From assembly GCA_012727535.1 (NCBI GenBank), contig JAAYGU010000147.1, positions 1 to 64,000 of the forward strand: a DNA stretch of 64,000 nucleotides. Direction: 5' to 3'. The translations under genes and the position numbers were made by a program. Positions 10,859 to 47,924 of the stretch are shown here, in pieces. This stretch comes from Bacillota bacterium. GTDB lineage: Bacteria > Bacillota > UBA4882 > UBA10575. The first letter of the stretch is position 1. Each line of letters begins with the position of its first letter. The notes under the pieces are model-generated. The model was not told the origin of the DNA and did no database searches. It saw nothing but the letters and a program-made list of their open reading frames with translations.

Positions 10859-10882
10859 AATTTGCCCATATTATACCATATC

Positions 10883-26854: not shown

Positions 26855-27047
26855 AATGGTGTTCTCCAGTGGCTTGAATCTCCTCTTAGCCAAGTATTCT
26901 TAGCGAAGCGGAACTGAAAGCGGGTCGAGCGAGAGGGAAGCCGCGAGCCGCTTTTGGTTAGGAGGAACCATAAAGCGGTTGCCCGCTTTCAAGCGGAGTG
27001 AGCTTTAGAATACTCCAAGAAATTCCACGAAACAAGGGAACACCATT
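26855..27047 (+). ncRNA. Structured repeat element, copy A
   Basis: This is one of three related 193-213 nt elements. Helices visible on the plus strand: P1 AATGGTGTTC / GAACACCATT (26855-26864, 27038-27047), P2 GAAT..TCTT / AAGA.ATTC, P3 GTATTCT / AGAATAC plus AGC / GCT, and P4 GAAAGCGGG / CCCGCTTTC (26916-26924, 26982-26990). A short P5 hairpin and P6 follow; P6 pairs CCGCTTT.TGGTT with AACCA.AAAGCGG around an AGGAGG loop. No open frame is present. Both flanking genes are on the minus strand. Strand choice rests on G-U pairs in sister copies and is tentative. Confidence 0.7.
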
Positions 27048-27118
27048 GAGCAGACGGAAATTCAATTTTGGATTGATTTTCATCCTTGCGCTTGTCCCAC
27101 TTCGCCAACTGGCGACTA

Positions 27119-28228
27119 CTAAAAAACTTCACCAATACTAAAATGCCATTTAGGATGCTCCCCTGGGGTATTCAACGGAACGGCATAGTCTAGACCAAGG
27201 TTAAGACCGTAGAGGAATAATTTGAAGCCAACCCCAACGCCAACCGAAGGTGAAGCAGTGAGCCGGTTCTGGTCATTCCAGACCAAGGCCGCATCAGTAA
27301 AAGCCAGCAAAGAAAAGGCGGTCCCCCTGATCTCCCGGTAACTTGAGGGCCAGGCTAATAACCTTAATTCTAAATTGCCAAGGATAAAACCATCGCCACA
27401 AAAGCGGTGTTCGTGATACCCCCGCAGCACAGTATCGGCCAACGTTCCCAAAAGGCCGACGTTGGTAAGGCTACCCAGACTACTCATACTAACCTGTTGA
27501 ATGCCTCCCAGTGCGAATCCCCGATGCACTGGATAATCCCCCCAAATCTTCCCGGCACGCGTCGCCAGGATCAAAGAGAATCGTCCCAGAGGCAAGTAGC
27601 GCCGCTGGTCTAATTCAGCTTTGATATACTGATAATCGGCGCCCAAGAGGGGATAAGCTGCGCCAAGACTGAGGTATTCACGCCGCCCGGATTGGGCAAA
27701 AAAATAAAAATTATCCCGGGTTACTGTAGCCTCAAACCCAAACAACGCAGCATTGTCTACTGGATATGAAGGCTGGGAGAGCGGGGTGAAATTTTCATAC
27801 TGGAGGCGCAGATCCAGTCGTTGTTCATTGGTAAAATGCCTACTGGCCAAGAGACTGACTCCCCGCTGTAACTCCCAAAACCCGGCGCTCCAGAGCGGAC
27901 CAGTATAAATCGGCATATGGTAGAGGTTAAGCCCGTAAGACCAATAGGGAGCATGTAGGGTATAACCGAGACAGAAATTAAAGAAGTCTTTTTCTGTGGC
28001 CAGCAAGACAAACTTAAGTTCTTGGTCACGCAGGATACTGCTCATCTTCGCATAAGTCGCGACGTAAAAAGAACCATCATAGGTAATGACCGGGACAAAG
28101 TACTCCAGCTCCAGCTGTGACTGGTAATCTTCATAGGAAGAGTGGGTATTAGCCAGTACGAGGCCGGCCGTCATGAAGTGGAGAAGCAAAAGACAGGCGA
28201 CCAGGCGTAAAATTTTAGCCGGCATCAT
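27119..28228 (-). CDS. Omp85/BamA-like outer-membrane beta-barrel protein
   Basis: The 369-residue product has a signal peptide (LVACLLLLHFMTAGLVLA) and no long hydrophobic helix afterwards. It is dominated by alternating amphipathic strands rich in Tyr, Phe and Leu. The C-terminal part resembles the surface-antigen (D15) barrel: RGYHEHRFCGDGFILGNLEL, AFTDAALVW, GVGVGFKLFLYGLNLGLDYA, and it ends in Phe as barrel substrates of BamA do. Its start overlaps the upstream metallopeptidase gene by 14 nt, so the two are coupled. No POTRA domain is seen. It is evidence for an outer membrane. Confidence 0.75.
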   Translation of the reverse strand: MMPAKILRLVACLLLLHFMTAGLVLANTHSSYEDYQSQLELEYFVPVITYDGSFYVATYAKMSSILRDQELKFVLLATEKDFFNFCLGYTLHAPYWSYGLNLYHMPIYTGPLWSAGFWELQRGVSLLASRHFTNEQRLDLRLQYENFTPLSQPSYPVDNAALFGFEATVTRDNFYFFAQSGRREYLSLGAAYPLLGADYQYIKAELDQRRYLPLGRFSLILATRAGKIWGDYPVHRGFALGGIQQVSMSSLGSLTNVGLLGTLADTVLRGYHEHRFCGDGFILGNLELRLLAWPSSYREIRGTAFSLLAFTDAALVWNDQNRLTASPSVGVGVGFKLFLYGLNLGLDYAVPLNTPGEHPKWHFSIGEVF

Positions 28229-29903
28229 CGTTCCTCCTTTCGAGTGGGGCGTCAGTATAATGATAGATCTCCGTACGGCCTTTATTATAAAGCACTACTA
28301 AATATTCATCCTCGGTTTGAGGGAGTACTTCTAAGACCGTCTCCCGGAAATGCCAGATTGGAGTGGCCCACCCCGTGGTTAAATCAACCTCTGCTGGCCG
28401 GTAATAGCCCCGGTCTCCGCTCAGACAATAGAGCTTACCTTCCTTACTCCAGATTGGTTTCCGGTGATGAAAACTCTGACGGGTCAGGAGCCGGACGCTC
28501 CCCCCCTCCCACAGATAAAGCTGATCATAACCGTGCAGCGGCGAAATAAAAACCAGCCCCCGGCCGTCCGGAGTCCAGGCCGGAGAAGTCTCATCCTCCA
28601 GGGAGTCAGCAATCCGTTTACGGATCTGACCGTCCAAGCCAATTAAGTAGAGATCGGCATCTCCTTTTTCATTGGCGACCACGGCCAGTTCGTCCCCCTG
28701 GGGAGACCAGGCGATCTCTATCGGGTTCTTAACTTCAGTGACAAACGGGGTTATCTCCCCAGTGATTAAAGATAACAGATAGAGTTTCCGCTCGCCCTCC
28801 TGGTCGGAGAGGAAAATTAGGCGCTGTCCGTCCGGCGAAAGATCAAAAGCCATCACCGTCTGGTCGGTTAAAGGACGGACTTTATCCCCCTCGGCCAAGC
28901 AGAGATCATAATAGCGGCCATAATAGTTAGAAAGAAAGAAGATCCGTCCGTCGGCAGTGGTTTTGACCATTTCCTGATCCCGGTATTCCGCGAGGATTGG
29001 AGTTGAACCTTCACTGTAAACAGGAAAGTCTGCCCCCTCTTGGTAGATGGTATCTAACTTCTCCCGCCAGTCCTTCCAGATTTCATTAAGATCGCGCCCG
29101 TAAAGCCGGGTGAAGGTCCGATGGGTATACCCTTCCTGTACGACCGCCTTCAGCATACGGGCCAGCTTCTCCCGGCCGTACTGGTCGGCCAGGTATTCAA
29201 CGAGCGACCAGGCTTCCGCATAATGAAGATTCCCTCTCACCTGGGAGATCTGTTCCAGAGAATCGACTTCATCACGGAGGACCACATCCCTCAGCGCTAC
29301 TTCCCGCCGGGGAAATCTGGTCTCAGGCGGCATGTAATATTCCGCTATCCCCTCGGCAATCCAGCCCGGTACACCTTGGGTGAGACTGGAAAGCAGGTTA
29401 TCCTTAAACGGTCCAATCGTCAGCAGGTGGGTAACTTCATGGGTTAATACCCCTCGTAAATCACGGAGGGTAGGTTGTCCGATGATCACGAGGCGATTAA
29501 CTAAAATATGTGCGACCCCTTCAGACGTGTCATGCAAACTGAGGCCGCTCGCTTGTGAGTTTTGGTACTCTTTGCGGGAGGCAAACAGGATCACCCGGAT
29601 TTTGCGGTAAGGCGTCAGTGTGTAAAAATCTTTAAAATCCGGAAATACACGGGCAAAGGCCTCTTCCTCTAGAATGATCCGGCATCGTTCCGCCAGTTCT
29701 TCCAACCCCTGATAAAAAAAGATCTGAAAATGCGGAGTATTTAAGACTTTCCACTGCAGGGGCCGGGGAGGCGCTTTCACTTGCCCAAACCGGTATTCAG
29801 CCCCAGTATTACTTAGTTCTACCGCCGACTGGGAAGGTAGAGACAACGCCAAAAGTAAGAGGCCCCAGATTAATCCGTAAAGAAAAAGGCGGGTTTTGTG
29901 CAC
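28215..29903 (-). CDS. Secreted gluzincin metallopeptidase with C-terminal beta-propeller
   Basis: The 562-residue chain starts with a signal peptide ending near residue 27. A peptidase MA-like gluzincin domain shows the zinc motif LTHEVTHLLT near 155 and a downstream GWIAEGIAEYY that supplies the third ligand. From about residue 300 come TolB/WD40-like PD40 repeats (FDLSPDGQRLIFLSD, IAWSPQGDELAVVAN, PAWTPDGRGLVFIS). It is coupled by a 14-nt overlap to the barrel gene downstream. In some diderm bacteria peptidase, propeller and surface-antigen barrel occur in a single chain; here the barrel is separate. Envelope protein turnover is likely; the substrate is unknown. Confidence 0.85.
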   Translation of the reverse strand: MHKTRLFLYGLIWGLLLLALSLPSQSAVELSNTGAEYRFGQVKAPPRPLQWKVLNTPHFQIFFYQGLEELAERCRIILEEEAFARVFPDFKDFYTLTPYRKIRVILFASRKEYQNSQASGLSLHDTSEGVAHILVNRLVIIGQPTLRDLRGVLTHEVTHLLTIGPFKDNLLSSLTQGVPGWIAEGIAEYYMPPETRFPRREVALRDVVLRDEVDSLEQISQVRGNLHYAEAWSLVEYLADQYGREKLARMLKAVVQEGYTHRTFTRLYGRDLNEIWKDWREKLDTIYQEGADFPVYSEGSTPILAEYRDQEMVKTTADGRIFFLSNYYGRYYDLCLAEGDKVRPLTDQTVMAFDLSPDGQRLIFLSDQEGERKLYLLSLITGEITPFVTEVKNPIEIAWSPQGDELAVVANEKGDADLYLIGLDGQIRKRIADSLEDETSPAWTPDGRGLVFISPLHGYDQLYLWEGGSVRLLTRQSFHHRKPIWSKEGKLYCLSGDRGYYRPAEVDLTTGWATPIWHFRETVLEVLPQTEDEYLVVLYNKGRTEIYHYTDAPLERRNDDAG

Positions 29904-30004
29904 AACAATCCCTCGTTTTGCTTTACTAAAGCAACTTCCGTACTTTAGCTGATCTTTATAAATCTTTCCATAAGTAAACAGTGTTTCCTGCCGGAATTTT
30001 GAGT

Positions 30005-30028
30005 AAAAAAAAAGAGGTTGTTACCCCT
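30005..30028 (-). terminator. Terminator at the yabP stop
   Basis: Minus-strand AGGGGT / ACCTCT with one G-U pair closes a 4-nt loop and is followed by nine T residues. The hairpin overlaps the yabP stop codon. Confidence 0.75.
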
Positions 30029-30311
30029 ATTTAAAGAGCTTGCCAAGAATTCCTTTATTCTTCTGGGCTAGAGTTTCCCCGCTGTAAATCAGGGAGTCGA
30101 TCCAACCGGTCAAGGATATTTTTCCTTGTTCCAGATTCAACTGGGTGAGGTGAAGATCATCACCCTTGATCACCAGCACTCCCTGGCTAGTTTCCAGAAC
30201 AAGCTCCTCTTGATCATAGCTGCCGACATTTGTAACACCATCGAGCGATAACCGCTCCCTGCTGACCAGAGTTAGCTGATGGTTACCCTTAGTGGTTTTT
30301 TTCTCATCCAT
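30027..30311 (-). CDS. yabP: Sporulation protein YabP
   Basis: This 94-residue YabP/YqfC-family protein is expected in the mother cell during sporulation. Family features are LVSRERLSLDGVTNVGSYDQEELVLET, split here as ERLSLDGVTNV and YDQEELVLETSQG, then LVIKGDDLHLTQLNLEQG. I start it at the ATG 30309-30311, eight nt after GAGGGG, instead of a GTG three codons upstream that overlaps the ribosome site. In Bacillus it lies in mazG-yabO-yabP-yabQ; here spoIID sits between mazG and yabP. Confidence 0.9.
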   Translation of the reverse strand: MDEKKTTKGNHQLTLVSRERLSLDGVTNVGSYDQEELVLETSQGVLVIKGDDLHLTQLNLEQGKISLTGWIDSLIYSGETLAQKNKGILGKLFK

Positions 30312-30381
30312 CCACGCCACCCCTCATTGTTATTCACAAAATATCATATGTCGTAAGAGGGGCGATGGGACCAGTTTTTAC

Positions 30382-31356
30382 TTACCATAAATCCATGATG
30401 GTAACCTTCGGGTAGTAGTGTTTAATAATCTCCTCCGGACTTTTTCCTTCTTTCGCTAAGGCGTGGGCTCCCCATTGACAAAGACCGACCCCGTGACCGA
30501 AACCCCGTCCCTTCATTTCGATCACACCGGAAGAATGGTTGAGATCAGTGCGCCAGATTGACCGCATCTTTTGCGGGTCAACCGCAATGCGAAAATCAGC
30601 CCCCGCCACACTCGCCTGGCCGTTAGTGCCGGTAAATCTCAAAGTAGTAGCGCGGTAAGAAGTTTTACTCCGGGCGGCTACTTCCATCCGGTTAACTGTA
30701 CCAACATCCTTCCCCAACTCGCCCAGCGCTCTCTTGATCTCCTCCCCGGTAAACTTTTCGGACCAGAATAATTCCTCCTTGGGGATAACTTTCTCCTCCG
30801 GACAGGAAACGGAGCGCATATAAGGCGGTTCCGGATCTTTATAAGCTAGTCCTTCTTTCGCCAGTGCCGTCTTACCGCCGCAACTAGCGGAGAACCAGCC
30901 TTTTACATACTTTCCCCGATAGGTCATCACTTTCCCTTTAGTCATTTCCACGGCACGACGAATCTCGGGTGTAATCGCTTCCGCATTGTAAGCCTGCGCC
31001 TCGACCTCATCCGTTGAAATATCAGTGCCATGCTCTTCCTGAGTTCCGCCGGAGGCAATAAAATCCATGGTAAAGGTCCGGGCAACAATCGCTTGGGCAG
31101 CATAGGCTTCCACGGGCCAATCCGGTTTCATTTCCCCGGCGACTACACCAAGAAGATATTCTTCGATCGGCATGGTTTCGGTCGTTTTGGTCTTATGCAT
31201 GTAGACTGTGATTTCCGGCTCTTTGGAAAACTTTTTCGCCACATTACTGAAGGTTTCTCCTTGCTTGGAGTCTGGGCAGCCCATGAAGACTAGAGCAGCC
31301 AACAAGATGACCACTGCACAGCTCCCCGTTAACAAGCGCCGGTTTTTACTCATCAT
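30382..31356 (-). CDS. spoIID: SpoIID-like peptidoglycan lytic protein
   Basis: SpoIID/LytB-family proteins cleave peptidoglycan glycan strands and drive engulfment together with SpoIIP and SpoIIM. From the ATG at 31354-31356 there is an N-terminal hydrophobic segment ending at a Cys (ALVFMGC), which may be a signal anchor or a lipobox. The SpoIID domain follows: MPIEEYLLGVVAGEM near 60, the YAAQAIVARTFT region, FSASCGGKT near 155 and GRGFGHGVGLCQWGAHALA near the end. An open frame continues 39 codons upstream into mazG, but it is unlike the family. Confidence 0.92.
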   Translation of the reverse strand: MMSKNRRLLTGSCAVVILLAALVFMGCPDSKQGETFSNVAKKFSKEPEITVYMHKTKTTETMPIEEYLLGVVAGEMKPDWPVEAYAAQAIVARTFTMDFIASGGTQEEHGTDISTDEVEAQAYNAEAITPEIRRAVEMTKGKVMTYRGKYVKGWFSASCGGKTALAKEGLAYKDPEPPYMRSVSCPEEKVIPKEELFWSEKFTGEEIKRALGELGKDVGTVNRMEVAARSKTSYRATTLRFTGTNGQASVAGADFRIAVDPQKMRSIWRTDLNHSSGVIEMKGRGFGHGVGLCQWGAHALAKEGKSPEEIIKHYYPKVTIMDLW

Positions 31357-31426
31357 AACCCCCCCACTTCTCTTCATTTTAGATTTAACTAACCGGAGGG
31401 GTTTTATGCAATATGCAAAAGAGAAG

Positions 31427-32230
31427 TTAGGACTGTTGCTTACTCTCTTCCCATAACGCATCAAGCTGGGCAAGGGTCAACCCGGCTAAGGACTCACCGT
31501 GGGCTGCCGCCAATTCCTCCATCCGACAAAAGCGGTTATAAAACTTGTCACAGGTACGTTTAAGCGCTAGTTCTGGATTGAGCTTTAAGAAACGGGCCAA
31601 ATTCACCAAGGAAAAAAGGAGATCCCCAAATTCCTCCTCCAACTGCCGTGCGGTTTGCGCACTCGGGCCTTCCTGTTCTTGCTGGTGCCAGACCTTGACC
31701 AGTTCTTCCGTCTCTTCTTTCACTTTGGCTAAAGGTCCGGCGATCTCTGGCCAATCAAACCCCACCCCCGCCGCTTTCCTTTGGAGCTTTTCGGCCCGCA
31801 TCAATGCCGGAAAAGTATTAGGGATACCATCCAGCAGGCTAGCCGGTTTTTCTTCTTTTTCCGCCGTTTTAATCTGTTCCCAGTTGGCCAAGGCTCCTTT
31901 TACCCCGGCCACTTCTTGCCCGCCAAAAACATGCGGATGACGCCGGATTAATTTCGCATTAAGCTCGCTAAGCACATCAGCTAGGGTAAACTCGCCCTGC
32001 TCTTCGGCAATTTGGGCATGAAAAACAACTTGCAATAAAAGGTCCCCTAGTTCTTCCCGGAGATGAGCGGGAGAATTCTCCTCGATCGCTTCCAAGACTT
32101 CATACGCTTCTTCCAACAAATAAGGGCGCAAACTGAGATGGGTTTGTTCCCGGTCCCAGGGACAACCATTTTCTCCTCGTAATCTCTGCATAATCTCTAC
32201 TAACCTTTGTAACTCCGAACTACTGCTCAT
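31427..32230 (-). CDS. mazG: Nucleoside triphosphate pyrophosphohydrolase MazG
   Basis: MazG hydrolyses NTPs and dNTPs to monophosphates and clears aberrant nucleotides. The 267 residues contain two MazG folds; the first shows CPWDREQTHLSL, LLEEAYEVLEAIEE and LREELGDLLLQVVFHA, whose acidic residues bind Mg. The second half has a related EELVKVW...EEFGDLLFSLVN segment. It heads a minus-strand group with spoIID and yabP. In Bacillus, mazG belongs to yabN in the comparable sporulation neighbourhood. Confidence 0.95.
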   Translation of the reverse strand: MSSSSELQRLVEIMQRLRGENGCPWDREQTHLSLRPYLLEEAYEVLEAIEENSPAHLREELGDLLLQVVFHAQIAEEQGEFTLADVLSELNAKLIRRHPHVFGGQEVAGVKGALANWEQIKTAEKEEKPASLLDGIPNTFPALMRAEKLQRKAAGVGFDWPEIAGPLAKVKEETEELVKVWHQQEQEGPSAQTARQLEEEFGDLLFSLVNLARFLKLNPELALKRTCDKFYNRFCRMEELAAAHGESLAGLTLAQLDALWEESKQQS

Positions 32231-32265
32231 CCTCTACCTCCTCTTTGTCGCACTCAAATTACCCA

Positions 32266-32490
32266 TTAAACTAAGAAACTACTGATTACTCCTACCCCGG
32301 TAAGAAAACAGCCGAGCCACAAAAATCCGTTCTCCCTCGCGTCCAGGTATTCAACGATTGATAGTATCCCCGCGGCCAGCGGAAATAACGGCCAATAAAT
32401 TAACCAGCCCCGGCGGAGCAAATCCTGGTGTTTAAAGAAGACCGCAAAGCTAAGGAGGAGAAGAATGAGACCAAAATTTCGGGTGCGCAC
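32266..32490 (-). CDS. Small membrane protein of unknown function
   Basis: The product has two to three hydrophobic segments (GLILLLLSFAVFF, IYWPLFPLAAGILSIV, FLWLGCFLTGVGVISSF) in about 74 residues. The ribosome site AAGGGAG favours the GTG at 32488-32490 over an ATG eight codons earlier that lacks one. It resembles short LiaI/LiaF-type membrane segments only in general form. Function is unknown. Confidence 0.55.
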   Translation of the reverse strand: MRTRNFGLILLLLSFAVFFKHQDLLRRGWLIYWPLFPLAAGILSIVEYLDARENGFLWLGCFLTGVGVISSFLV

Positions 32491-32663
32491 TTTGTTTTCT
32501 CCCTTCTTTCTCATTTTGTAACAGATGCATCAGCTTCTTTACTCGTTAAGATTAGACCACAAAATTAAATGAGAAGTAAATGCTTTAGGCAGGTCCTGGA
32601 AAGATTCATGTATACCCGCCCCCGAAAGTACATAAGATACAATATGTTAAATTTGCTGGAAAG

Positions 32664-33347
32664 GTGGAAGACGATTTGTGGTTCCCTTTTTCTCGAAAAT
32701 CTCCCGGGCTTCAATCTTTAAAGCCTTATCGGATTCACGCCCACAGTCATGATGCCTGCCGGCAGTTCAGTGAAGGCCTGCAGACCTATCTCTCAAGTCT
32801 CTATGAGGATAATTCTTCTTTAGTGATACTATGTATTGGCACAGATCGTTCGACCGGTGACAGTCTTGGACCGCTCGTCGGGAGTAAAATACAGGATAAG
32901 CTTCCGGCTGGGGTAACTGTTTATGGTACGCTAGAAAAACCCATTCATGCCGTTAATCTAGAAGAGACAATTAAAGCCATTTATCAACGCTTCAAAAACC
33001 CATTCATTATCGCGGTCGACGCCTGCCTGGGCCGGAGCGAAAATATCGGTTTTATCAGTATTAAGCCAGGGGCTTTACGGCCGGGAACCGGTGTCAATAA
33101 ACAACTCCCCGAAGTAGGCAAAATGCACATTATTGGGGTGGTAAATGTCGGCGGCTTTATGGAATACCTAGTTTTACAGAACACCCGTTTAAGTTTGGTG
33201 ATGCGGATGGCGGAAGTGATCAGCGAAAGCCTCATCCATAGCTGCCGTAATTTCTTTGGTGAAACAGCGTTCGAAAGCGAGCTGGTTTTAGGTAATTCTC
33301 CCCTGGTTGCCGGTCAACCACCGCTGGAACTAGAGGATAGTCTTTAG
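32664..33347 (+). CDS. yyaC: YyaC-family sporulation protein
   Basis: This DUF1256/YyaC protein is related to the germination protease GPR fold. It is conserved in spore formers, with unknown detailed function. Landmarks are CIGTDRSTGDSLGPLVGSK near 52, IIAVDACLGR near 112 and PGTGVNKQLPEVGKMHIIG near 137. Start choice is weak: GTG 32664 has little ribosome site, while a TTG at 32676 follows AGGTGG. A TGTATA...CATAAGA stretch (about 32611-32639) loosely recalls a forespore sigma-G promoter. It is transcribed away from its minus-strand neighbours. Confidence 0.88.
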   Translation: MEDDLWFPFSRKSPGLQSLKPYRIHAHSHDACRQFSEGLQTYLSSLYEDNSSLVILCIGTDRSTGDSLGPLVGSKIQDKLPAGVTVYGTLEKPIHAVNLEETIKAIYQRFKNPFIIAVDACLGRSENIGFISIKPGALRPGTGVNKQLPEVGKMHIIGVVNVGGFMEYLVLQNTRLSLVMRMAEVISESLIHSCRNFFGETAFESELVLGNSPLVAGQPPLELEDSL

Positions 33348-33381
33348 ATAACAGACCCTAATCCAATGTCAGCCCGTGCCG

Positions 33382-34344
33382 CTATTCTGTTGTAAACCCA
33401 AGGAGCGCCGCGCCGACAATCCCGGCATCATTACCAAGCACTGCTTCTTTTAATTGGGTCGCTGGCATAGCTTCGCTGTCTTTGGTGTAGATCTCTCGCG
33501 CAACCCTTTTTTGCAAAGCAGACAAAAGAGACTCCCCCTGTTGGGCGATTCCCCCGCCGAGCACAATAACTTCCGGTTGAAAAATATTGATGATATTACT
33601 CACCCCAACTGCCAGATAATCAAAGTATTGCTCCACCACGCTAGCGGCAAACGGATCTCCTTGACGGGCCGCATCAAAAGGGGTTTTCGCCGTAATATTA
33701 GCCGGATCGCCCTCCGCCAAAGTAAGCAATAAAGACTCAGGATGAGCAGCGGCCGCCGCCCGTGCCTGTCGGATTAGAGCGGTCGCCGAAGCATAAGCTT
33801 CCCAACAACCCCTTCGTCCGCAGGTACAAACCTGGCCATCAAATTTAATAACCATATGTCCTAATTCCGCCGCTGCATAATTGAAACCGCTGTAAACTTG
33901 GTGGTTTATAATAACTCCACTGCCAATCCCGGTTCCCAGAGTAATGGTGACAGAGGAACTGGCTCCTTTGGCTGCTCCAACCAAGCCTTCAGCTAAAGCT
34001 GCACAGTTTGCATCATTATCCAAATGGACCGGTAAAGGAAGGTGCTTTTGGATCTCTGTTCGGACCGGCACATTTTTAAATCCTAAATTGTTGTTGTATA
34101 TCAGAACTCCGTTCTTGACATCAGGAGTTCCCGGTGCCCCGACCCCAATGCTCTGGATCGCCGCTAAGCTTAGGCCAGCCTCTTCAACCAAACCCCGGGC
34201 TAGCAAAGCCATATCCGTTAAAATCTCCCGATAGTGCCGCTCCTTTTGCGTTGGGATACTGCTTTTTCTGAGTAACCGACCGCAGCTGTCAACAAGTCCG
34301 GCGGCAATGTTGGTTCCTCCTAAATCGATCCCTATATAATACAT
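33382..34344 (-). CDS. ROK-family glucokinase
   Basis: The enzyme phosphorylates glucose with ATP at entry to glycolysis. The 320 residues start YYIGIDLGGTNIAAGLVD (ATP-binding phosphate loop). They carry the catalytic Asp in LPVHLDNDANCAALAEG, the ROK signature around ELGHMVIKFDGQ and a zinc motif CTCGRRGCWEAYASA. C-terminal EVIVLGGGIAQQG closes the fold. It could accept other hexoses; glucokinase is the usual role in Firmicutes. Confidence 0.9.
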   Translation of the reverse strand: MYYIGIDLGGTNIAAGLVDSCGRLLRKSSIPTQKERHYREILTDMALLARGLVEEAGLSLAAIQSIGVGAPGTPDVKNGVLIYNNNLGFKNVPVRTEIQKHLPLPVHLDNDANCAALAEGLVGAAKGASSSVTITLGTGIGSGVIINHQVYSGFNYAAAELGHMVIKFDGQVCTCGRRGCWEAYASATALIRQARAAAAAHPESLLLTLAEGDPANITAKTPFDAARQGDPFAASVVEQYFDYLAVGVSNIINIFQPEVIVLGGGIAQQGESLLSALQKRVAREIYTKDSEAMPATQLKEAVLGNDAGIVGAALLGFTTE

Positions 34345-34521
34345 GCCTTTCCTCCCCCATTGGAGTTTTTGGCGACGCCTTTATCCTTAAAGTCTCCCAA
34401 TCCAAGATCTTTTTTAATCTGATCTTCTATCATCCGGCTCTTGTGACCTACACCCCGCTTCCCCCACACCCCTAAACCTCAACATGTTAACCAAAGGCAA
34501 TGGGATAAATAACCTGTTAAA

Positions 34522-34554
34522 AATAATCCCCCACCGCAAGGATGGGGGATTATT
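34522..34554. terminator. Terminator after the sugar-ABC ATPase gene
   Basis: Twelve-base-pair inverted repeat AATAATCCCCCA / TGGGGGATTATT with a 9-nt loop; on the minus strand it is followed by TTTTTAAC. Confidence 0.88.
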
Positions 34555-34572
34555 GAGTTTAATCTAATTAAC

Positions 34573-35676: not shown

Positions 35677-36018
35677 TGTTGTTACCTCCCAATTGTTTTT
35701 ATTTGTTTTATTTATTTTTATTTATCCTTAAAAATTAATAACGAATTATTAGATTTTAGGAATAACCCAACCTATGTCTAACCCTTCACCTCACTTTAGT
35801 GACCAGAAACTGTTGTTCTACCGAAAAAAATATGTCCTCAACGAAAAGACTGGTCATTCTCTTTTATCTTCTGCAACAGGATCCAGCTTGCTTTATGAAT
35901 TTATATTCGACATAAGACTAATTTTTCCTGCTGTAAATTTTCGCGTTTTACCGCCATAAAAATCCACTAAATTTTATGGTTGTTGCTGCTAAATTATGTG
36001 AGCTGAAACGGAAATAAG

Positions 36019-36047
36019 ACAAAACCCGGGTAAAACCCGGGTTTTGT
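36019..36047. terminator. Terminator after the porin-like gene
   Basis: ACAAAACCCGGG / CCCGGGTTTTGT form a perfect 12-bp stem with a 5-nt loop. T-runs flank it on either strand. Confidence 0.85.
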
Positions 36048-36078
36048 CCCCATAGATAACCTTCGCTAATTACTGATC

Positions 36079-37095: not shown

Positions 37096-37545
37096 CAATT
37101 CGTCCTCCTTAGGTTTCTGCGATTTTTGTTTGATTGATTTACTGAAGCAATTTATCAGGGCTAGTGCTGCGATTAGAAAAGAGTCGAATTGAGTGGTCAT
37201 GTTTCCTCATTCCTTCTCTTTTCCGGCTGTGTCTAGTAGTGGGTTGAATTACTACCCCCGTTCGCCGTCCAATGCCTAAGTCGTTTTCACCTCCTTCTCA
37301 CCGGGCGGCTGAGTATGGGTGTAGTAAACTTAAAACTGTTTCTTTAAAATTACAGCAAGTTTTTGGTCAGCCTAAGCATTGATCTTCTTCCTCGACATAT
37401 GCCATGACTATTAAATTTTCAATGTCCCCGTGTCATGCCTAATAATTCTCTTTTTTAAGCATATCTCCTGCTAAACCGCCTAATGTATATCTTGCCACCC
37501 CTGGCAAGATTGCTTATAACTAGAGAATATATCCAGCAATAGAGA

Positions 37546-37580
37546 GCGAGCCTTTGCTGGAAGAGCTTCTTGGAGCCGGA
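37546..37580 (+). repeat. Partial copy of the 3' part of element B
   Basis: GCGAGCCTT and AAGAGCTTCTTGGAGCCGGA occur here and again, in the same order, at 37801-37839 inside element B. The fragment overlaps a local hairpin, CCAGCAA / TTGCTGG (37533-37560). A further small hairpin ATCTTGCC / GGCAAGAT lies at about 37490-37509. No gene is seen in 37096-37885. Confidence 0.65.
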
Positions 37581-37648
37581 AAATGCACCCAAAGCAAGCA
37601 CAAATACAGCTAATTTTACTGCTTACAATCTCTTAAATTTCTACCCAG

Positions 37649-37856
37649 CCCGGCCGGCTGTTGGCGGAAAGCATACTTGAAGCTCTTCTCTCTGCATTCT
37701 TGGCGAGCAAAGGCAGAAATCGGGCCGAGCGACAGGAGGTCGCGAGCCGCTTGCGAGAATTAGGAGGTTCTCTCAAGCGGGGGCCCAGTTTCTGCTGGTA
37801 GCGAGCCTTAGAATGCCAGAAGAGCTTCTTGGAGCCGGAGACAACAGCGGGCCGGG
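37649..37856 (+). ncRNA. Structured repeat element, copy B
   Basis: The same nested fold as copies A and C is present with different paired bases. P1 is CCCGGCC.GCTGTTG / CAACAGC.GGCCGGG (37649-37663, 37842-37856). P2 is GAAGCTCTTCT / AGAAGAGCTTC, 11 bp perfect. P3 is GCATTCT / AGAATGC plus GGC / GCC. P4 is GCAGAAA..GGGCC / GGCCC..TTTCTGC. P5 is GCGAC(AGGAG)GTCGC. P6 is CCGCTTG.GAGAA / TTCTC.CAAGCGG with a loop containing AGGAGG. Porin and uvrC on either side are on the minus strand. One U-G pair in P4 favours the plus strand. Confidence 0.75.
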
Positions 37857-37885
37857 CGGGGTTCTGTCTAAAATTTAAGCTCTTA

Positions 37886-39718: not shown

Positions 39719-39865
39719 TTTAATCCCCCCTGAAAATACTTTTTTCGAAATAGCTTTGAATAATCCGTGAACAGTGCAGGAAATTACCGTTTTTACGGGA
39801 ATAATACATTAGATTGCCGTACAAAGATTCTGCACAAAATTTAACACAAGATAAGGAGCGAGATC

Positions 39866-40819
39866 GTGAACTACATTAAGAAACTGAACAACTTTTTAAA
39901 CAAACGGATGTATATTATCGTCTTCGTCGGTATCGCAATGGGACTGCTCTTCTCGGCAGAACTTTTAGCTGGGAAGCCCGCCGTCCCTTACATCTTTGCT
40001 TACATTACTTTTACTTTGGCCTTGGGAACCGGATGGAAGGACCTAAAAGGAGTCATTAAATACCCTTTTCCCTTGCTCCTTACCCTGATCTGCCTCCATC
40101 TCATCTCTCCCCTTTTTGCCTATCTCTTGGGGAATATCTTTTATGGCAAAACCTCTTTGCTTACTACCGGGTTGATCCTGACGACCGCGATCCCGGTTGG
40201 CGTCAGTTCTATTATCTGGGTTGGTTTGGCCCGCGGGCACGTACCACTGGCCCTGACTACTGTAGCCGTAGATTCGCTGGCAAGTCCGTTGTCCGTGCCC
40301 CTAGTGATCATGGCGTTTTTGGGCAAATCAGTCGTTTTTGACGCTTCAGGGATGGTAAAGAGCCTGTTTTTGATGATCTTCCTCCCAACAGTTTTCGGTG
40401 TCTTGATTCATGATTTGGGCGGTGAGAAAGTGGCGAAGATGGATCGTTCGGCCCTAGCCCTACTCTCTAAGATGGGACTCTCCTTTGTGGTCGGAGTGAA
40501 TGTCGCCGCCTCCCGGGAGTATCTTTATACCGCGGGTTCCCGCGTGATATTACTCTTTTTCGTGCTGATAATCTTGGTTTCCTCTAATTATCTCCTGGGT
40601 TTCTTTGCCGCTAAACTAGCTAAATTTCCCCGCGAGGTTGCGATGTCTATGCTTTTCCAGGCGGGGATCAGAAATATCAGCGCCGGAGTGGTCGTTGCCT
40701 TGAATTATTTCCCTCCAGCCGCTGCTCTTCCTTGTATTATCGGTTTATTAATCCAGCAGCCTTCGGCCAGCATTATTCTGCATTTTATGGAAAAGAACAA
40801 CCCCCAAATGATTGAATGA
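39866..40819 (+). CDS. BASS-family (bile acid:sodium symporter-like) transporter
   Basis: The 317-residue protein has nine to ten hydrophobic segments and the style of the bile acid/sodium symporter superfamily (ITFTLALGTGWKDLKGVIKYP, TTAIPVGVSSIIWVGLARGH, SMLFQAGIRNISAGVVVAL). Start is GTG 39866 behind AAGGAG. Substrates in this superfamily include bile acids, pantoate, 2-keto acids and pyruvate; none can be assigned. It precedes nrdJ on the same strand with about 37 nt between. Confidence 0.8.
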   Translation: MNYIKKLNNFLNKRMYIIVFVGIAMGLLFSAELLAGKPAVPYIFAYITFTLALGTGWKDLKGVIKYPFPLLLTLICLHLISPLFAYLLGNIFYGKTSLLTTGLILTTAIPVGVSSIIWVGLARGHVPLALTTVAVDSLASPLSVPLVIMAFLGKSVVFDASGMVKSLFLMIFLPTVFGVLIHDLGGEKVAKMDRSALALLSKMGLSFVVGVNVAASREYLYTAGSRVILLFFVLIILVSSNYLLGFFAAKLAKFPREVAMSMLFQAGIRNISAGVVVALNYFPPAAALPCIIGLLIQQPSASIILHFMEKNNPQMIE

Positions 40820-40856
40820 TCATTATCCCAACTTTAAAAAAGGAGGTCCTTCCTCG

Positions 40857-43166
40857 ATGAAGCTCTCTGCGAACGCCCGAACGGTTTTAGAACGCCGTTA
40901 TTTAAAACAAAGGGACGGTCGGCTAGAAACGCCGGAAGAGATGTTGACCCGGGTGGCGAAAAATATCGCCCAGGTTGAAAAGGAATTCTACGGTCAATCC
41001 GAGGCTGAGACCAAAAAGTGGGAGAGTGCTTTTTTTCAACTCATGGATGAACAGAAGTTTCTGCCCAATTCCCCGACTTTAATGAATGCCGGGCATAAAC
41101 TGCAGCAACTAGCCGCTTGTTTTGTTCTACCCATTGAGGATTCGATGGAATCCATCTTTGAAACATTAAAAATCGCCGCTTTAATCCATAAAAGCGGCGG
41201 TGGGACCGGTTTTTCTTTTTCTCGTCTGCGTCCAAAGAATGATCTGGTTGGCTCAACCGGGGGTGTCGCCAGTGGACCGCTCTCCTTTTTAAAAGTCTAC
41301 AACGCCAGTACGGAAGCGGTAAAACAAGGAGGGGCCAGCCGGGGCGCGAATATGGGGATCCTGCGGGTTGATCATCCAGATATTGAAAGTTTTATTGTCG
41401 CCAAAAAAGGAACCGGTGAGTATACAAATTTTAATCTCTCCGTAGCCATCACGGATCGATTTATGGAAGCGCTGGCCAAAAAGGAGAAGTTTCCTTTGGT
41501 TAACCCCCGCACCGGGGCTCCGGTCGCCCATGTTGACCCTCAAGCACTTTTCCGCTCCATCGCTGAAGCCGCCTGGTCTTCAGGTGAACCCGGGGTCATC
41601 TTTATCGACCGGATTAATCAGTTTAACCCTACGCCGCAGTTGGGTCCGATCGAAAGTACCAACCCCTGCGGCGAACAGCCCCTTCTCCCCTACGAGGCTT
41701 GTAACCTTGGTTCGATTAATCTGTCCTTGTTCTGTCGGGAGCAGGCCGGAAGAACCGAGGTGGACTGGGAGGAGTTAAAAGAAACAATTCATACGGCAAT
41801 CCGTTTCCTTGATAATACCATCGATGCCACCGTCTACCCCCACCCGAAGATTGAGTCCCTCTGCAAAGCCAACCGGAAAATTGGTTTAGGGGTTATGGGT
41901 TGGGCGGAGATGCTGATCAAAATGGGGTTGCCGTACAATTCTGAACAAGCCCTGGCTTTAGCCGAAGAGGTAATGAGTTTTATCGACCGTGAATCAAAAG
42001 CGGCCTCCGCCGCATTAGCAGAGGAAAGGGGCGCTTTCCCCAATTTTAAAGGGAGCATGCACGACCGACCGGGACTCCCTCCGTTACGTAATGCCACCAC
42101 CACGACAATCGCTCCCACCGGTTCCCTCAGCATTATTGCCGGAACCACCGGTGGGATTGAACCGCTCTTCAGCATTGTTTTTACCCGACAGATCTTAGAT
42201 AATGACCATTTACTCGAGGCCAACCCGCTTTTTCTCCAGGCGGCCAAAGAGAGAGGGTTCTACAGTGATGAACTGATGCAGCGGATCGCCGAAGAGGGGA
42301 GCCTGGAAAATATCCCTGAGGTCCCAGCCGATCTCAAAGCGATCTTTCTGACGGCACACCAGATCGCTCCGGAATGGCACATTCGCATGCAAGCGGCTTT
42401 TCAGAAGTTTACCGATAACGCCGTCTCCAAGACATTAAACTTCCCCCGCTCAGCTACGAAGGAACAAGTTGCAGACGCCTATCTTTTAGCTTACCAATTA
42501 GGCTGTAAAGGGGTTACTATCTATCGCGACGGCAGTATTGAAAACCAGCCCATGCAACGGGGTTTATCATCAAAATCCGAAACTCCCGCCGAAACCCCAC
42601 CCTCTGCCTCCTTACCGATCGGGGAGTGGGGGAAGATCCACCCGCTGAAACGTCCGGTCCGGTTAGACGGGATTACGGATCGTAAAATCACTCCTGAAGG
42701 GACTTTGTACTTAACTTTAAATTACTACCAGAACCGGCCTTTTGAACTGTTTACCCAGATTGGTAAGGCAGGAACCGATATCATGGCTTTTACAGAAGCG
42801 ATTGCCCGTCTGATCTCCCTGGCTTTTCGCTGTGGAATCGATCCGGAAGCAGTCGCTGAACAGCTCATCGGGATCGGGGGCAGCCGGTCCGTCGGATTTG
42901 GCCACAACCGGGTGCGTTCGGTTCCCGATGCGATTGGACAATTTCTTTACGACTTCCTCCACTCGGTCTCCCCAGGACAGGTCGTTCAGGAACAGTTGGC
43001 CCTCTCTCCGGCCGAAAACCCCGCCTCTACCTCCGGCAATCGACCAAATTTAGCAAAAAATAATCCACAGACGCTTTTTAACCTTTGTCCCGTCTGTGGG
43101 ATGTATACCTTTGCTTATCTCGAGGGCTGTGCCAAGTGTTTAGCCTGCGGACACTCCGAGTGTTAA
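40857..43166 (+). CDS. nrdJ: Adenosylcobalamin-dependent (class II) ribonucleotide reductase
   Basis: This enzyme reduces ribonucleotides to deoxyribonucleotides without oxygen, using a B12-derived thiyl radical. From ATG 40857 (ribosome site AAAGGAGGT) the 769 residues show the ten-stranded barrel with FLPNSPTLMNAG near 65. The radical-site motif STNPCGEQPLLPYEACNLGS is near 268. A C-terminal zinc-ribbon (CPVCGMYTF...CAKCLACGHSEC) completes the chain. An open frame extends 15 codons upstream into the BASS gene, but the strong ribosome site rules it out. No other RNR class is in the window. Confidence 0.96.
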   Translation: MKLSANARTVLERRYLKQRDGRLETPEEMLTRVAKNIAQVEKEFYGQSEAETKKWESAFFQLMDEQKFLPNSPTLMNAGHKLQQLAACFVLPIEDSMESIFETLKIAALIHKSGGGTGFSFSRLRPKNDLVGSTGGVASGPLSFLKVYNASTEAVKQGGASRGANMGILRVDHPDIESFIVAKKGTGEYTNFNLSVAITDRFMEALAKKEKFPLVNPRTGAPVAHVDPQALFRSIAEAAWSSGEPGVIFIDRINQFNPTPQLGPIESTNPCGEQPLLPYEACNLGSINLSLFCREQAGRTEVDWEELKETIHTAIRFLDNTIDATVYPHPKIESLCKANRKIGLGVMGWAEMLIKMGLPYNSEQALALAEEVMSFIDRESKAASAALAEERGAFPNFKGSMHDRPGLPPLRNATTTTIAPTGSLSIIAGTTGGIEPLFSIVFTRQILDNDHLLEANPLFLQAAKERGFYSDELMQRIAEEGSLENIPEVPADLKAIFLTAHQIAPEWHIRMQAAFQKFTDNAVSKTLNFPRSATKEQVADAYLLAYQLGCKGVTIYRDGSIENQPMQRGLSSKSETPAETPPSASLPIGEWGKIHPLKRPVRLDGITDRKITPEGTLYLTLNYYQNRPFELFTQIGKAGTDIMAFTEAIARLISLAFRCGIDPEAVAEQLIGIGGSRSVGFGHNRVRSVPDAIGQFLYDFLHSVSPGQVVQEQLALSPAENPASTSGNRPNLAKNNPQTLFNLCPVCGMYTFAYLEGCAKCLACGHSEC

Positions 43167-43176
43167 GTCAACCGGC

Positions 43177-43374
43177 TTATGGCAATACTTCAATACCGCC
43201 GTTGAGGTCTAAACGAATTTTCATCCGCAACCCGGTGTGAGAAATGAACTGATAGATCCGTTGATCTTTCCCTGCTTCCAGTAAGCGAATCTGGCCTTTT
43301 TTCTTTAAATGGTTTAAAAATTCTTGCCTGTCGTTAACCTTGCTGTTCTGCAAAATAGTAATGAAATTTTCCAG
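43177..43374 (-). CDS. Small protein, probable CTG start
   Basis: A 65-codon open frame reads ENFITILQNSKVNDRQEF after a CTG at 43372-43374 and ends IRLDLNGGIEVLP at TAA 43177-43179. An ideal ribosome site AGGAGGA (43382-43387) lies seven nt before the CTG, with no ATG, GTG or TTG at a usable distance. The middle is Lys/Gln-rich (LNHLKKKGQIRLLEAGKDQR). No family is recognised. The clear ribosome site and sensible composition make it a plausible real gene in the nrdJ/HD-GYP interval. Confidence 0.5.
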   Translation of the reverse strand: MENFITILQNSKVNDRQEFLNHLKKKGQIRLLEAGKDQRIYQFISHTGLRMKIRLDLNGGIEVLP

Positions 43375-43543
43375 AGTGCTTCCTCCTAATCGTTGCTCTG
43401 TTTTCTGCCGTTTTTGCCTATATTTTACTAAATAATGACATAATCGTTTGTATTATATAGTGGACCATCCTACTTGTCAAGACTAATTTTTTAAAATTTA
43501 TCCTTTCGCGGAAGCGGTCACTGCCCCAAAGTTAGTTTCTGTT

Positions 43544-44575
43544 TTACGATAAGCGGCGTTCAATTTTCAATCTGGAATTCCGGGATAATTCTAACTTCTG
43601 CCCTTTGTTTTTACCGGTTAATAGTTTCAACTTGATCTTTTTTAAAGTAACATCACAGACGGTAGCCACTTCCATATTATTTAACAACACTACACTGCCC
43701 ACCGGGTAAAGGGCAACAACCTGAGAGAGGACAGAAACGACCTTAGGATCATATTTTTCCGGGGCTGCGGCCTGTAGTTCCGCCAGCGCGCTATGACTCC
43801 ACATGGCTTCCCGGTAATGGCGGCCGGAGGTCATGGCATCGTAGGAATCAGCCACCATCACTATTTTCGCATAATAATGAATCTGCTCTGCCGTGAGGCC
43901 ACGAGGATAACCAGAACCATCCGCTCGTTCATGATGTTGATAAGCTACGTGCGCGGAGAGGAGACTCAACTCCGGATGCCCTCTCAATAGATCAAAACCG
44001 TATTGGGGATGGCGTTTTACCTTTTCATATTCCGGTGCGGAGAGCCGGCCTACTTTTTCTAAAATCGGATTTTCGATGTAAACTTTCCCAATATCATGAA
44101 GCAGTGCGCCGGTTACCATTTCTTTGAGTTGGCGCCGGTTCAGTTTTAAAGCCTTGCCGAGGAGCACAGAGAGCACGCCTACATTGACCGAATGGAGATA
44201 TGTGTAGTTACTATGGTTCTTGAGTTCAATAATATTATAGACTACACCCTCCTCCATAACTTCGTCCAGCATGAAATCGGCCACCTCAATTACTGCCGGT
44301 AAGTCGAGACTTTGATATTTAGCCGCCCTGATCATACTGTCACGAACAGTGCAAATAGCTTTAGTATAAGTTTCGTCACTGACTGGTCCCCTGAACTCAA
44401 AATCTTCCGGAGTCTCTCCGATATAAAGGAATCTATAATTTAACTCCTTTAATTTCTGCAGATAACTTTTGGTTAATTTCGTTCCTTTAACCAGCAAGAT
44501 TCGTCCGTCATTTCCTAGTACGTTTCTGGCTAAATACATCCCTTCCTGAATCTGATCAATCGGTAGAAATCTCAT
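43544..44575 (-). CDS. HD-GYP domain c-di-GMP phosphodiesterase
   Basis: HD-GYP proteins hydrolyse cyclic di-GMP. From ATG 44575 the 343 residues start MRFLPIDQIQEGMYLARNV, a small N-terminal beta domain, then show the metal site LLHDIGKVYIENPIL near 160. The diagnostic HHERADGSGYPRGLT is near 215 and VADSYDAMTS near 240. No receiver or membrane segment is visible. It is a close paralogue of the gene at 57261-58289, with the same N-domain and motifs. A weak ribosome site (AAAGGA) supports the chosen start over an open frame 27 codons longer. Confidence 0.92.
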   Translation of the reverse strand: MRFLPIDQIQEGMYLARNVLGNDGRILLVKGTKLTKSYLQKLKELNYRFLYIGETPEDFEFRGPVSDETYTKAICTVRDSMIRAAKYQSLDLPAVIEVADFMLDEVMEEGVVYNIIELKNHSNYTYLHSVNVGVLSVLLGKALKLNRRQLKEMVTGALLHDIGKVYIENPILEKVGRLSAPEYEKVKRHPQYGFDLLRGHPELSLLSAHVAYQHHERADGSGYPRGLTAEQIHYYAKIVMVADSYDAMTSGRHYREAMWSHSALAELQAAAPEKYDPKVVSVLSQVVALYPVGSVVLLNNMEVATVCDVTLKKIKLKLLTGKNKGQKLELSRNSRLKIERRLS

Positions 44576-44923
44576 TATGTGTCCCCATTCCTTTATTTTT
44601 TTTGGCGCATAAACATTTAAGGCTAATTCGAGATCTTTTCTTTCTCGACGGAGCATAATAAAATATCATACTGCTTTATATTCCAAATGAGAAATAAATC
44701 CTGTTAAGAAAGAATTATTCTCCCAGATTTACACTCTCTTTTTTAAAAAATTTAATCCCAATTTATTAATCGGCTGAGGTAGTTGATCTTTATTGATTTT
44801 AATTAAAAAGAAAAGCGGTGGATATAAAAGCAGTTTTCTACTATAATTTCCCTAAGGATTGGAAAGCGGACTACTGTCCAACATTCCGTAACTAACGGTT
44901 TAAAGAGGGATGGAGGGTTTGAC
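44576..44923. other. Divergent intergenic region between HD-GYP and tldD
   Basis: An AT-rich 348-nt region with no gene seen. A TATAAT at about 44841-44846 on the plus strand may be the -10 of tldD, but no good -35 is spaced correctly. The minus-strand promoter of the HD-GYP gene should also lie here. Confidence 0.35.
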
Positions 44924-46300
44924 ATGCTTACTGACTTGTCTCAATATACGGATCTGTTTTCCGGTTACACTGAACTACGGTACCAAGAAAATTCCGGCTT
45001 ATCGATCGGCTTTTTGCAGGGAGACAATACGACTAATGCCAAGGGTTCCTCCGGTGGAGTCTGCGCCCGTGTCTATCAGAACGGCTCCTGGGGGTTTGCT
45101 TCCTCTCCCGATTTGACGGCGGAAGGGATTCGTTTTGTCATCACTACCGCTACCAAGAACGCCGCCTTTTTAGATCAAAAAGAACATAAAGCCGGAGCGC
45201 CCCTGCCCAGCAGCGTTTATAATGCCAAGCAGGATTATTCCACCACGAAACCGCGGCTTACCCAGAACCAGTTGGTAGAGTTTATGAAGGAACTTGACCA
45301 GTATATCGCCGCTCGTTATCCTCAAGTAACTAGTAGGTGGGTAAGCTTAAACTGTTCCGAGCAGAAAAAAAGCTTAATCACTTCCGATGGTTCCTCCGCT
45401 TACTCTTTGCTTCCCCAGAGTTTTATCATGGTTAACTTAACCGTCGAAAAGGATGGGGAACCGATTAGCCTTAGCGAAATCTACGGCGGACGCGGACATT
45501 TTGAGGATCTCTTCTCGCATCCAGAAGACCTTTCCCCCGAGATTGACCAGCTCGTTGAGCACTTGATGCAAAAACGGGATGGAATCCATGCCGCCGCAGG
45601 CTTGAAAACATGTATCCTCGCACCGGAAATGGCCGGAATTTTAGCCCATGAGGCTATCGGTCATACAACCGAAGCCGATCTGGTAATCGGTGGATCAATC
45701 GCCGGATCATACCTTAATAAGGAAGTAGCCAGTCCCTTGGTGACCATGGTTGATTTTGCCCATACCGCCTTTGGTGAAACCTGTCCGGTTCCGGTGCAGG
45801 TTGATGACGAAGGAACCAAAGCCGAAGATTGCGTCTTGATCGAAGGGGGGATCTTAAAAGGTTTTATGCATAATAAAGAAAGTGCTGATCGTTTCGGGGT
45901 TTCACCGACCGGTAATGCCCGGGCAAACAGCTATGTGGATGAACCATTAATCAGAATGCGCAATACAGCTATTCTCCCCGGAAATGACGACCTGGCTGAG
46001 ATGATCGCCTCGGTTGATGATGGGTATTACCTCATCCGCACCAACAACGGACAGGCCGACGCAACCAGCGAGTTTATGTTCGGCGTCACCCTCGGTTATG
46101 AAATCAAAAAAGGAAAACTGGGTCGCGCGATTAAAGATACAACTGTTTCCGGAGTAGCGTTTGCCATGCTGAAAACAGTCAGTATGATATCGAAGGAGTT
46201 TAAGTGGTTATCAGGTGGTATGTGCGGGAAAAAACAGTCCATATCCGTTGGTTTAGGCGGACCCGCCCTCAAGTGCGAACTCAAAATCGGAGGTCGATAA
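44924..46300 (+). CDS. tldD: TldD-type metallopeptidase subunit
   Basis: TldD and TldE form a heterodimeric zinc protease that matures or degrades unfolded peptides. The 458 residues carry the zinc motif LAHEAIGHTTEADL near 242 (HExxxH) and the third ligand Cys region SGGMCGKKQ near the C-terminus. The N-terminal ferredoxin-like part is typical (YTELRYQENSGLSIGF). The start follows GAGGGATGGAGGG. tldE follows one base after the stop, so the two are coupled. The true substrate here is unknown; some Tld pairs process microcins or RiPPs, but no precursor is nearby. Confidence 0.93.
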   Translation: MLTDLSQYTDLFSGYTELRYQENSGLSIGFLQGDNTTNAKGSSGGVCARVYQNGSWGFASSPDLTAEGIRFVITTATKNAAFLDQKEHKAGAPLPSSVYNAKQDYSTTKPRLTQNQLVEFMKELDQYIAARYPQVTSRWVSLNCSEQKKSLITSDGSSAYSLLPQSFIMVNLTVEKDGEPISLSEIYGGRGHFEDLFSHPEDLSPEIDQLVEHLMQKRDGIHAAAGLKTCILAPEMAGILAHEAIGHTTEADLVIGGSIAGSYLNKEVASPLVTMVDFAHTAFGETCPVPVQVDDEGTKAEDCVLIEGGILKGFMHNKESADRFGVSPTGNARANSYVDEPLIRMRNTAILPGNDDLAEMIASVDDGYYLIRTNNGQADATSEFMFGVTLGYEIKKGKLGRAIKDTTVSGVAFAMLKTVSMISKEFKWLSGGMCGKKQSISVGLGGPALKCELKIGGR

Positions 46301-46301
46301 G

Positions 46302-47597
46302 ATGGAGAAGCGAGAAACTACCGCTTACTGTTTGAATGCTCTGTTAAAAGCCGGCGCCGAGCAAGCGGAGACCGTATTGTATAACACGGAGCGGACAGAG
46401 TTGAATTACGAAAACGGTGAAATAAACTTGATCCGCACCACTGTTGATACTAAACTCCAACTCTCCGTCATCAAGCAACAGAAACTAGGAAAAATCATAT
46501 TAAATCAGGTTAGCCCCCAAGCCATTACCCAAGCTATCGAGGAAGTAATGACCATTACCGAAGGGGCTAAGCCCGATCCGGCGCATGCGTTTGCCGAGGC
46601 TCAACCGGCGCAGAACTTCACCAAAGGAGCAACGACCCCTGACTTAGACCTAATGTACCAACGATTAAAGACCTTTACGCAAACGGTGGCCGCGCAGTTT
46701 CCCCAGACCTTCCTGCGCAACATCTACCTAAATTTCACCAGGTCTAATAGTTCTTTCCGGAATTCCAATGGGGTAGATTTTACGACACAAAAGGGAATCT
46801 ATCATGTTTCCGCCACCTTTTCCGCCCAGGATGGTGAAGCCTCGTCCTCTTTTAATTATACCGGTTATTCTACTCTTGATCTCAACCAGGAGTTACTGGA
46901 GGGTGGTTCGCTGCGCCTACTTTTGCAGAATTCAAGCCGTGAACTTCATCCTATACCGTTAAGCGGCAAATTTACCGGAGAAATCATTCTCACCCCGGAT
47001 TGTCTGGAAGGTTTCATCAGTTCTTTACTGGGAATCAGTATCACGGACGCTCCTTTAATCACCGGCACCAGTATTTTTAAGGACCAACTTAACCAGTTGG
47101 TGACCAGCCCACTGTTCACACTCTATTCCCGACCGGTTTCCCCGGAAATTGCCAGTGGTTATTTTTTCACCAGTGATGGTTATGCAGCCCAAAACTCCAC
47201 TATTATTGAGCAAGGGGTCTTAAGAACCTATTTATTGAGTCTCTACGGTTCGCGCAAAACCGGCTTGCCGAAGGCGGTTAATGACGGAGGCGCCTATGTG
47301 GTGGCGCCGGGTGAAGAATCGCTCAATACCATGATTAAAGGGGTGAAGAGAGGGATTCTGCTGACCCGCTTCTCCGGGGGACGTCCCAACCGCAATGGGG
47401 ATTTCTCCGGGGTGGCGAAGAACAGTTTTTATCTTGAAGATGGTGAAATCAAACATCCGCTAACGGAGACGATGATTGCCGGTAATTTAGCAGCGCTTTT
47501 CCGGAATATTACCGCGGTCTCCCAAGAACGGGTCAATTTTGGCCATGGGATTTACCCCTGGATTGCTTCTACTGGGGTGACGATTTCCGGCCAATAA
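46302..47597 (+). CDS. tldE: TldE/PmbA-type subunit
   Basis: This is the partner of TldD in the heterodimer; it lacks the metal site but helps form the catalytic chamber. The 431 residues match the PmbA layout: RTELNYENGEINLIRTT at the N-terminus, FRNSNGVDFTTQKGIYHVSA in the middle, and GDFSGVAKNSFYLEDGEI...ITAVSQE near the end. No HExxxH is present, as expected. The ATG lies just behind the tldD stop with GGAGG before it. Confidence 0.93.
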   Translation: MEKRETTAYCLNALLKAGAEQAETVLYNTERTELNYENGEINLIRTTVDTKLQLSVIKQQKLGKIILNQVSPQAITQAIEEVMTITEGAKPDPAHAFAEAQPAQNFTKGATTPDLDLMYQRLKTFTQTVAAQFPQTFLRNIYLNFTRSNSSFRNSNGVDFTTQKGIYHVSATFSAQDGEASSSFNYTGYSTLDLNQELLEGGSLRLLLQNSSRELHPIPLSGKFTGEIILTPDCLEGFISSLLGISITDAPLITGTSIFKDQLNQLVTSPLFTLYSRPVSPEIASGYFFTSDGYAAQNSTIIEQGVLRTYLLSLYGSRKTGLPKAVNDGGAYVVAPGEESLNTMIKGVKRGILLTRFSGGRPNRNGDFSGVAKNSFYLEDGEIKHPLTETMIAGNLAALFRNITAVSQERVNFGHGIYPWIASTGVTISGQ

Positions 47598-47711
47598 AGG
47601 GAGAGCGGAGCGAGTAAGGCCGGAAAAATCGGCCAGCGCTTCATAGAAGTCGCCCATGCCAGCAAGCCAGGGCAAGCAAAAGGATGAAAACTAGTCAAAG
47701 TTACTATCTCC

Positions 47712-47924
47712 GCCGGAGCCGAATGGTGCTTCCTTGTTCCGGTGAATTTCTTGGAGTATTCTAAAGCTCAGATTCGCTTGAAAGCGGGCATCCGCTCTAT
47801 GATTTCTCCTGAACCAAAAGCGGCTCGCGACTTCCCTGTCGCTCAGCCCGCTTTCAATCTTCGTGTTGCTAAGAATTCTTTACCTCGAAATTCAATCCAC
47901 TGAAAACCACCATTCGGCTCCGGC
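47712..47924 (-). ncRNA. Structured repeat element, copy C
   Basis: Minus-strand copy, most like A. P1 is a perfect 17-bp helix GCCGGAGCCGAATGGTG / CACCATTCGGCTCCGGC (47712-47728, 47908-47924). P2 is TGAATTTC / GAAATTCA. P3 is ATTCT..AGC / GCT..AGAAT. P4 is GAAAGCGGGC / GCCCGCTTTC. P5 is GCGAC(AGGGAA)GTCGC. P6 is CCGCT..TGGTT / AATCA..AGCGG with loop CAGGAGA and one G-U pair. tldE and ogt on both sides are on the plus strand. The remaining parts of 47598-48023 hold no gene. Confidence 0.75.

Follow-up and report, generated by a model that had tools for sequence, protein, structure and literature searches.

The window, a 64,000-nt stretch of DNA from a Bacillota bacterium, carries three dispersed copies (A, B and C) of a structured, non-coding element (Table 1). 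Their positions and strands, as assigned by an earlier sequence-only reading, all proved correct when checked in the sequence, and the shared core and nested helices described there were found in each of the three copies. Folded together with 20 nt of flanking sequence, copies A, B and C have MFE values of -78.5, -129.4 and -107.6 kcal/mol, respectively. Copy A shares 82% identity with copy C and can be aligned with copy B over the core only (72% identity). Directly upstream of copy B lies a relic that matches copy B positions 152-191 at 85%; the sister species has a longer relic at the equivalent position. In line with the absence of an open frame or transposase reported previously, the ORF list contained none of the copies' own at the copies; a 99-aa reverse-strand frame overlapping copy B looks spurious. 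By eye, the flanks of many copies in the host's family are also repeated (e.g., window positions 26800-26850 and 27060-27125), with CTCGTCGCTCGC-like stretches on the left and TTTTCATCCTTGCGCTTGCCC...GGGCGACTACT on the right. The repeat thus extends beyond the structured core. Elsewhere in the window, a T-box leader and a TPP riboswitch score over their Rfam thresholds.

Table 1. Features of the window. R1 denotes a covariance model built from 32 copies of the element.
Feature	Position	Strand	Details	Basis
T-box leader	390-643	-	98.1 bits, over Rfam threshold	
TPP riboswitch	10773-10865	-	66 bits, over Rfam threshold	
Copy A	26855-27047	+	P1 26855-26864 with 27038-27047	
Copy A, R1 match	26875-27026		132 bits; copy in R1 training set	
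Copy A apical hairpin 1	26929-26944	+	GGA in loop at 26936-26938	sequence, alignment
Copy A apical hairpin 2	26948-26978	+	AGGAGG in loop at 26960-26965	sequence, fold, alignment
Relic	37545-37580	+	3' half of another B-type copy	
Copy B	37649-37856	+	second subfamily	
Copy B, R1 match	37678-37829		129 bits; copy in R1 training set	
Copy B apical hairpin 1	37729-37743	+	GGA in loop at 37735-37737	sequence, fold, alignment
Copy B apical hairpin 2	37747-37780	+	GGA in loop at 37763-37765	sequence, fold, alignment
Copy C	47712-47924	-	best preserved of the copies by R1 score	
Copy C, R1 match	47743-47894		166 bits; copy in R1 training set	
Copy C apical hairpin 1	47827-47842	-	loop CAGGGAAG	sequence, fold, alignment
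Copy C apical hairpin 2	47792-47823	-	loop CAGGAG	sequence, fold, alignment

The proposal that the copies share a selected, covarying structure was borne out in two alignments, in which both-sided pair changes were compared with shuffles. In a MAFFT alignment of 27 full-length copies, the 81 pairs of a structure derived from these same sequences were standard pairs in 88.8% of cells, and 50 of them had changed on both sides, as compared to a mean of 26.7 upon shuffling (0 of 500 as high) and to 19-30 pairs in controls with slid partners. Across 45 copies from many Firmicutes families, in an alignment fitted to R1 and leaning towards that model's structure, 33 of 37 pairs showed both-sided change and again none of 500 shuffles was as high, counts that are no probability because the sequences in these tests are related. 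An earlier pair list on a wider alignment gave a mixed outcome. When copy B and its ortholog in the sister species (G001) were folded jointly, a procedure that favours pair-keeping, 74 of 74 pairs were kept with three both-sided changes; with copy B folded alone, eight pairs break in the ortholog, three change on both sides and two on one side.

The three copies of the window are real, but they are not the whole set: in the host genome, copy A has 26 DNA matches and copy B has seven, many of them half copies, several consisting of a left half joined to a right end. Within the host's GTDB family, 14 of the 16 genomes gave R1 matches, and in a phylum-wide sample 22 of 200 did so (some of the 22 weakly, with E near 1e-4), confirming the earlier suggestion of a multi-copy family across related genomes. 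At the site of copy B, the element is also present in the sister species and missing from four genomes of another genus, while the site of copy C is occupied in the sister species by a rearranged remnant rather than being cleanly empty.

For copies A, B and C, no Rfam family reaches its threshold, nor is there any noteworthy match up to E=10. They fall below the gathering threshold (43 bits) of TwoAYGGAY (RF01731, clan CL00106), with no match to this model up to E=10. The earlier suggestion that the family is apparently undescribed was therefore examined with covariance models and was not supported. RF01731 matches member loci in three genomes (G039, G138 and G003) that R1 matches as well, and it spans an element copy found within the GTDB family of the host (L154) over its full length, with both loops in register, at a sub-threshold 28 bits. 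In the reverse direction, R1 matches eight of eight fetched RF01731 loci (23.7-86.8 bits), including three over threshold. Since the two models match each other's loci, we take the window copies, judging by these model matches, to be most plausibly an unrecognised and divergent TwoAYGGAY branch that escapes the Rfam model.

TwoAYGGAY (Weinberg et al. 2010, PMC2864571) shares with the element an outer imperfect stem, a junction and two apical hairpins with GGA loops, and two such hairpins above a long stem were found in the present family. The tandem GA of RF01731 (passages of PMC4333381) is likewise common to both, with GA opposite GA in 36 of 45 element copies. In contrast to the strict AYGGAY loop of TwoAYGGAY, the loops of the family read CA(N)GGANG, with a variable N and often one base shorter, and the window copies sit in a multi-copy element that is mobile in one genome (G107, see below), whereas the passages of the cited literature contain no report of TwoAYGGAY mobility. 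Bacillaceae-1 (RF01690) has a sub-threshold match of 24.1 bits at L224:2477-2538 (-), on the strand opposite the two GGA hairpins; as passages of Gardner and Eldai (PMC4333381) locate CsrA motifs in Bacillaceae-1 on its reverse complement, the two families may be related. The same locus harbours, beside an element copy, a purine riboswitch (2676-2854, reverse strand, 89 bits) adjoining a sub-threshold guanidine-I match (57.1 bits).

In the 45-copy alignment, the bases of the apical loops, with the consensus given above, were among the most invariant columns, with stems covarying freely. GGA was present in both apical loops of 42 of the 45 copies, as compared to 17% of 8-mers picked at random within these elements; within loop 2, it was shifted in one or two copies. 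The loop motif fits both the CsrB repeat CAGGA(U/A/C)G and the RsmE hexaloop ANGGAN (as given in passages of PMC7652899), and CsrA binding by TwoAYGGAY has been proposed, without test, in passages of Gardner and Eldai 2015 (PMC4333381). With the CsrA-sequestering sRNAs (CsrB/CsrC, RsmX/Y/Z), a class that according to passages of the latter paper had up to then been identified only in Gammaproteobacteria, the element shares CAGGA(U/A/C)G-type loops on hairpins; those sRNAs carry many loops, whereas the element has two, occurs in dispersed copies and is predicted to bind CsrA. The host's csrA, by reading, encodes an intact 77-aa protein and adjoins fliW. Over the phylum sample, csrA was found in 19 of 22 element-bearing and in 117 of 178 other genomes, a weak association (one-sided p=0.037 without correction for relatedness). 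In genus g3, all three genomes lack csrA by PF02599, yet their element copies have kept GGA loops.

Mobility of the element was evident in a related genome, G107. In this genome, where the element has the end CTGGACTTTCCCCA, there were 60 forward and 58 reverse TIR matches, as compared to none for a reversed control pattern; among the matches listed, most form pairs spaced by 238 bp, suggesting roughly 55 elements. All ten tested insertions were flanked by exact target duplications of 7-10 bp (scores of 7-10 versus a mean of 2.4 for mismatched flanks). Short, non-coding and bounded by TIRs and target-site duplications, the G107 element is clearly a small, MITE-like transposon. Two 112-bp derivatives without the core, which share one common deletion, lie at different sites, each with a duplication of its own by eye, which argues that movement probably does not require the core; judging from these two derivatives and their common deletion, for which the same deletion arising twice is an alternative, the RNA core seems to be cargo of the element. 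There is also a 190-bp derivative without the two hairpins. In the search for an autonomous partner in G107, two odd TIR-like sites were inspected, one of which is a small palindrome; by eye, the ORF lists showed no recognisable transposase. At the G107 loci inspected (L210-L219, L270-L274), TTGACA occurs in the first 35 bases next to the element in 7 of 16 right flanks and in none of the left flanks, against a background of 0.9% per 35-mer; insertion apparently takes place immediately upstream of -35 boxes.

Copies in the host's family have ends that differ from those in G107, with no target-site duplication or clean end recognised by eye. We infer that these copies, too, were dispersed by transposition of the G107 type. 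According to passages of PMC5896051, Coxiella QMITE1 and QMITE2 are likewise MITE families, each present in about 50 copies, from which sRNAs originated; these sRNAs arose at a few insertions, and the text of PMC5896051 makes no mention of CsrA. HEARO (RF02033) had no match in the host, but it had none in the control genomes either, an uninformative control. A REP/RAYT system was rejected: the flanking palindromes are REP-like by eye, but the Y1 transposase (PF01797) is nearly absent: of the 16 genomes in the host's family, 2 have it, one of them with internal stops.

Together, the data support a repeated, TwoAYGGAY-type element with covarying helices that is mobile in at least one lineage; the sequence-only reading had not recognised the copies as part of a mobile-element family. 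Our preferred explanation, which we regard as about as likely as not, is that the copies represent a MITE-like Firmicutes element with a divergent TwoAYGGAY-type RNA, predicted to bind CsrA. The body of the element is a long imperfect hairpin that leads into a junction bearing two apical hairpins. The loop of each presents CA(N)GGA(N)G, the site type recognised by CsrA/RsmE, and the pair of loops would suit one CsrA homodimer. A transcript of the GGA strand would bind CsrA and then titrate or tether it. Transcription, CsrA binding, titration and an effect on the host are each predicted. In favour of this explanation are the reciprocal model matches, the covariation, the conserved GGA loops, the greater stability of the GGA strand, the intact host csrA and the G107 insertions. 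Against it stand the csrA-less carriers of genus g3, the weak csrA association over the phylum, the usual antisense position of the GGA strand, and the failure to find a transposase or, for copies in the host's family, target duplications and clean ends. A simple consensus scan of the window copies, moreover, revealed no promoter for the GGA strand.

The strongest competitor, possible although we lean against it, is a MITE whose palindromic body acts as DNA or has no role, its likeness to CsrA sites being incidental or a relic; the hairpins would then serve a mobilising enzyme or be kept by templated palindrome repair. While the mobility in G107, the many decayed half copies and the loops retained in the csrA-less genus g3 agree with this, the apparent dispensability of the core for movement and the conservation of loop bases amid changing stems speak against it, as does an asymmetry in folding energy, the GGA strand being the more stable one in 41 of 45 copies. 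A strand test comparing wobble pairs with A-C mismatches in core pairs was weak, and its not very unequal counts (76 versus 59; 32 copies) are in keeping with a DNA-level role. Loop 2 is frequently AGGAGG and carriers without csrA exist, as might be expected of a trans-acting or structural RNA whose GGA loops bind a partner other than CsrA, such as the anti-Shine-Dalgarno end of 16S rRNA; this is improbable, as GGA alone and not GGAGG is kept, and loops such as CAGGACG, CATGGACG and CACGGACG occur. Least probable is a cis-regulatory RNA of neighbouring genes: RF01731 is typed Cis-reg in Rfam and the copies are intergenic, but in 31 of 50 cases both neighbours are antisense to the GGA strand, as opposed to 10 same-sense cases (related copies, some of them orthologs, with genes called by ORF length), and TwoAYGGAY was scored 'cis-reg: n' in passages of Weinberg et al. 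2010 (PMC2864571). Given this prevailing antisense orientation, read-through would rarely make the GGA strand.

Returning to the reading as a MITE-like element with a predicted CsrA-binding RNA, the TwoAYGGAY motif and the CsrA-binding hypothesis (Gardner and Eldai 2015) were already known; new are the occurrence of a TwoAYGGAY-type RNA inside a MITE-like mobile element, the loop conservation and the stability asymmetry favouring the GGA strand. TwoAYGGAY has so far been an uncharacterised motif with a proposed, hypothetical role in CsrA binding (PMC4333381). A divergent branch of it in 22 of 200 sampled Firmicutes genomes, in one of which it lies inside an element that moved recently, would explain the dispersed copies. 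More tentatively still, and in our judgement doubtful, the family might constitute a phylum-wide transposable element with a conserved CsrA-dimer-binding cargo, whose copy number and insertion context tune the host's global regulator. The family offers many natural variants for binding tests, and through it a transposon would be connected with a global regulator.
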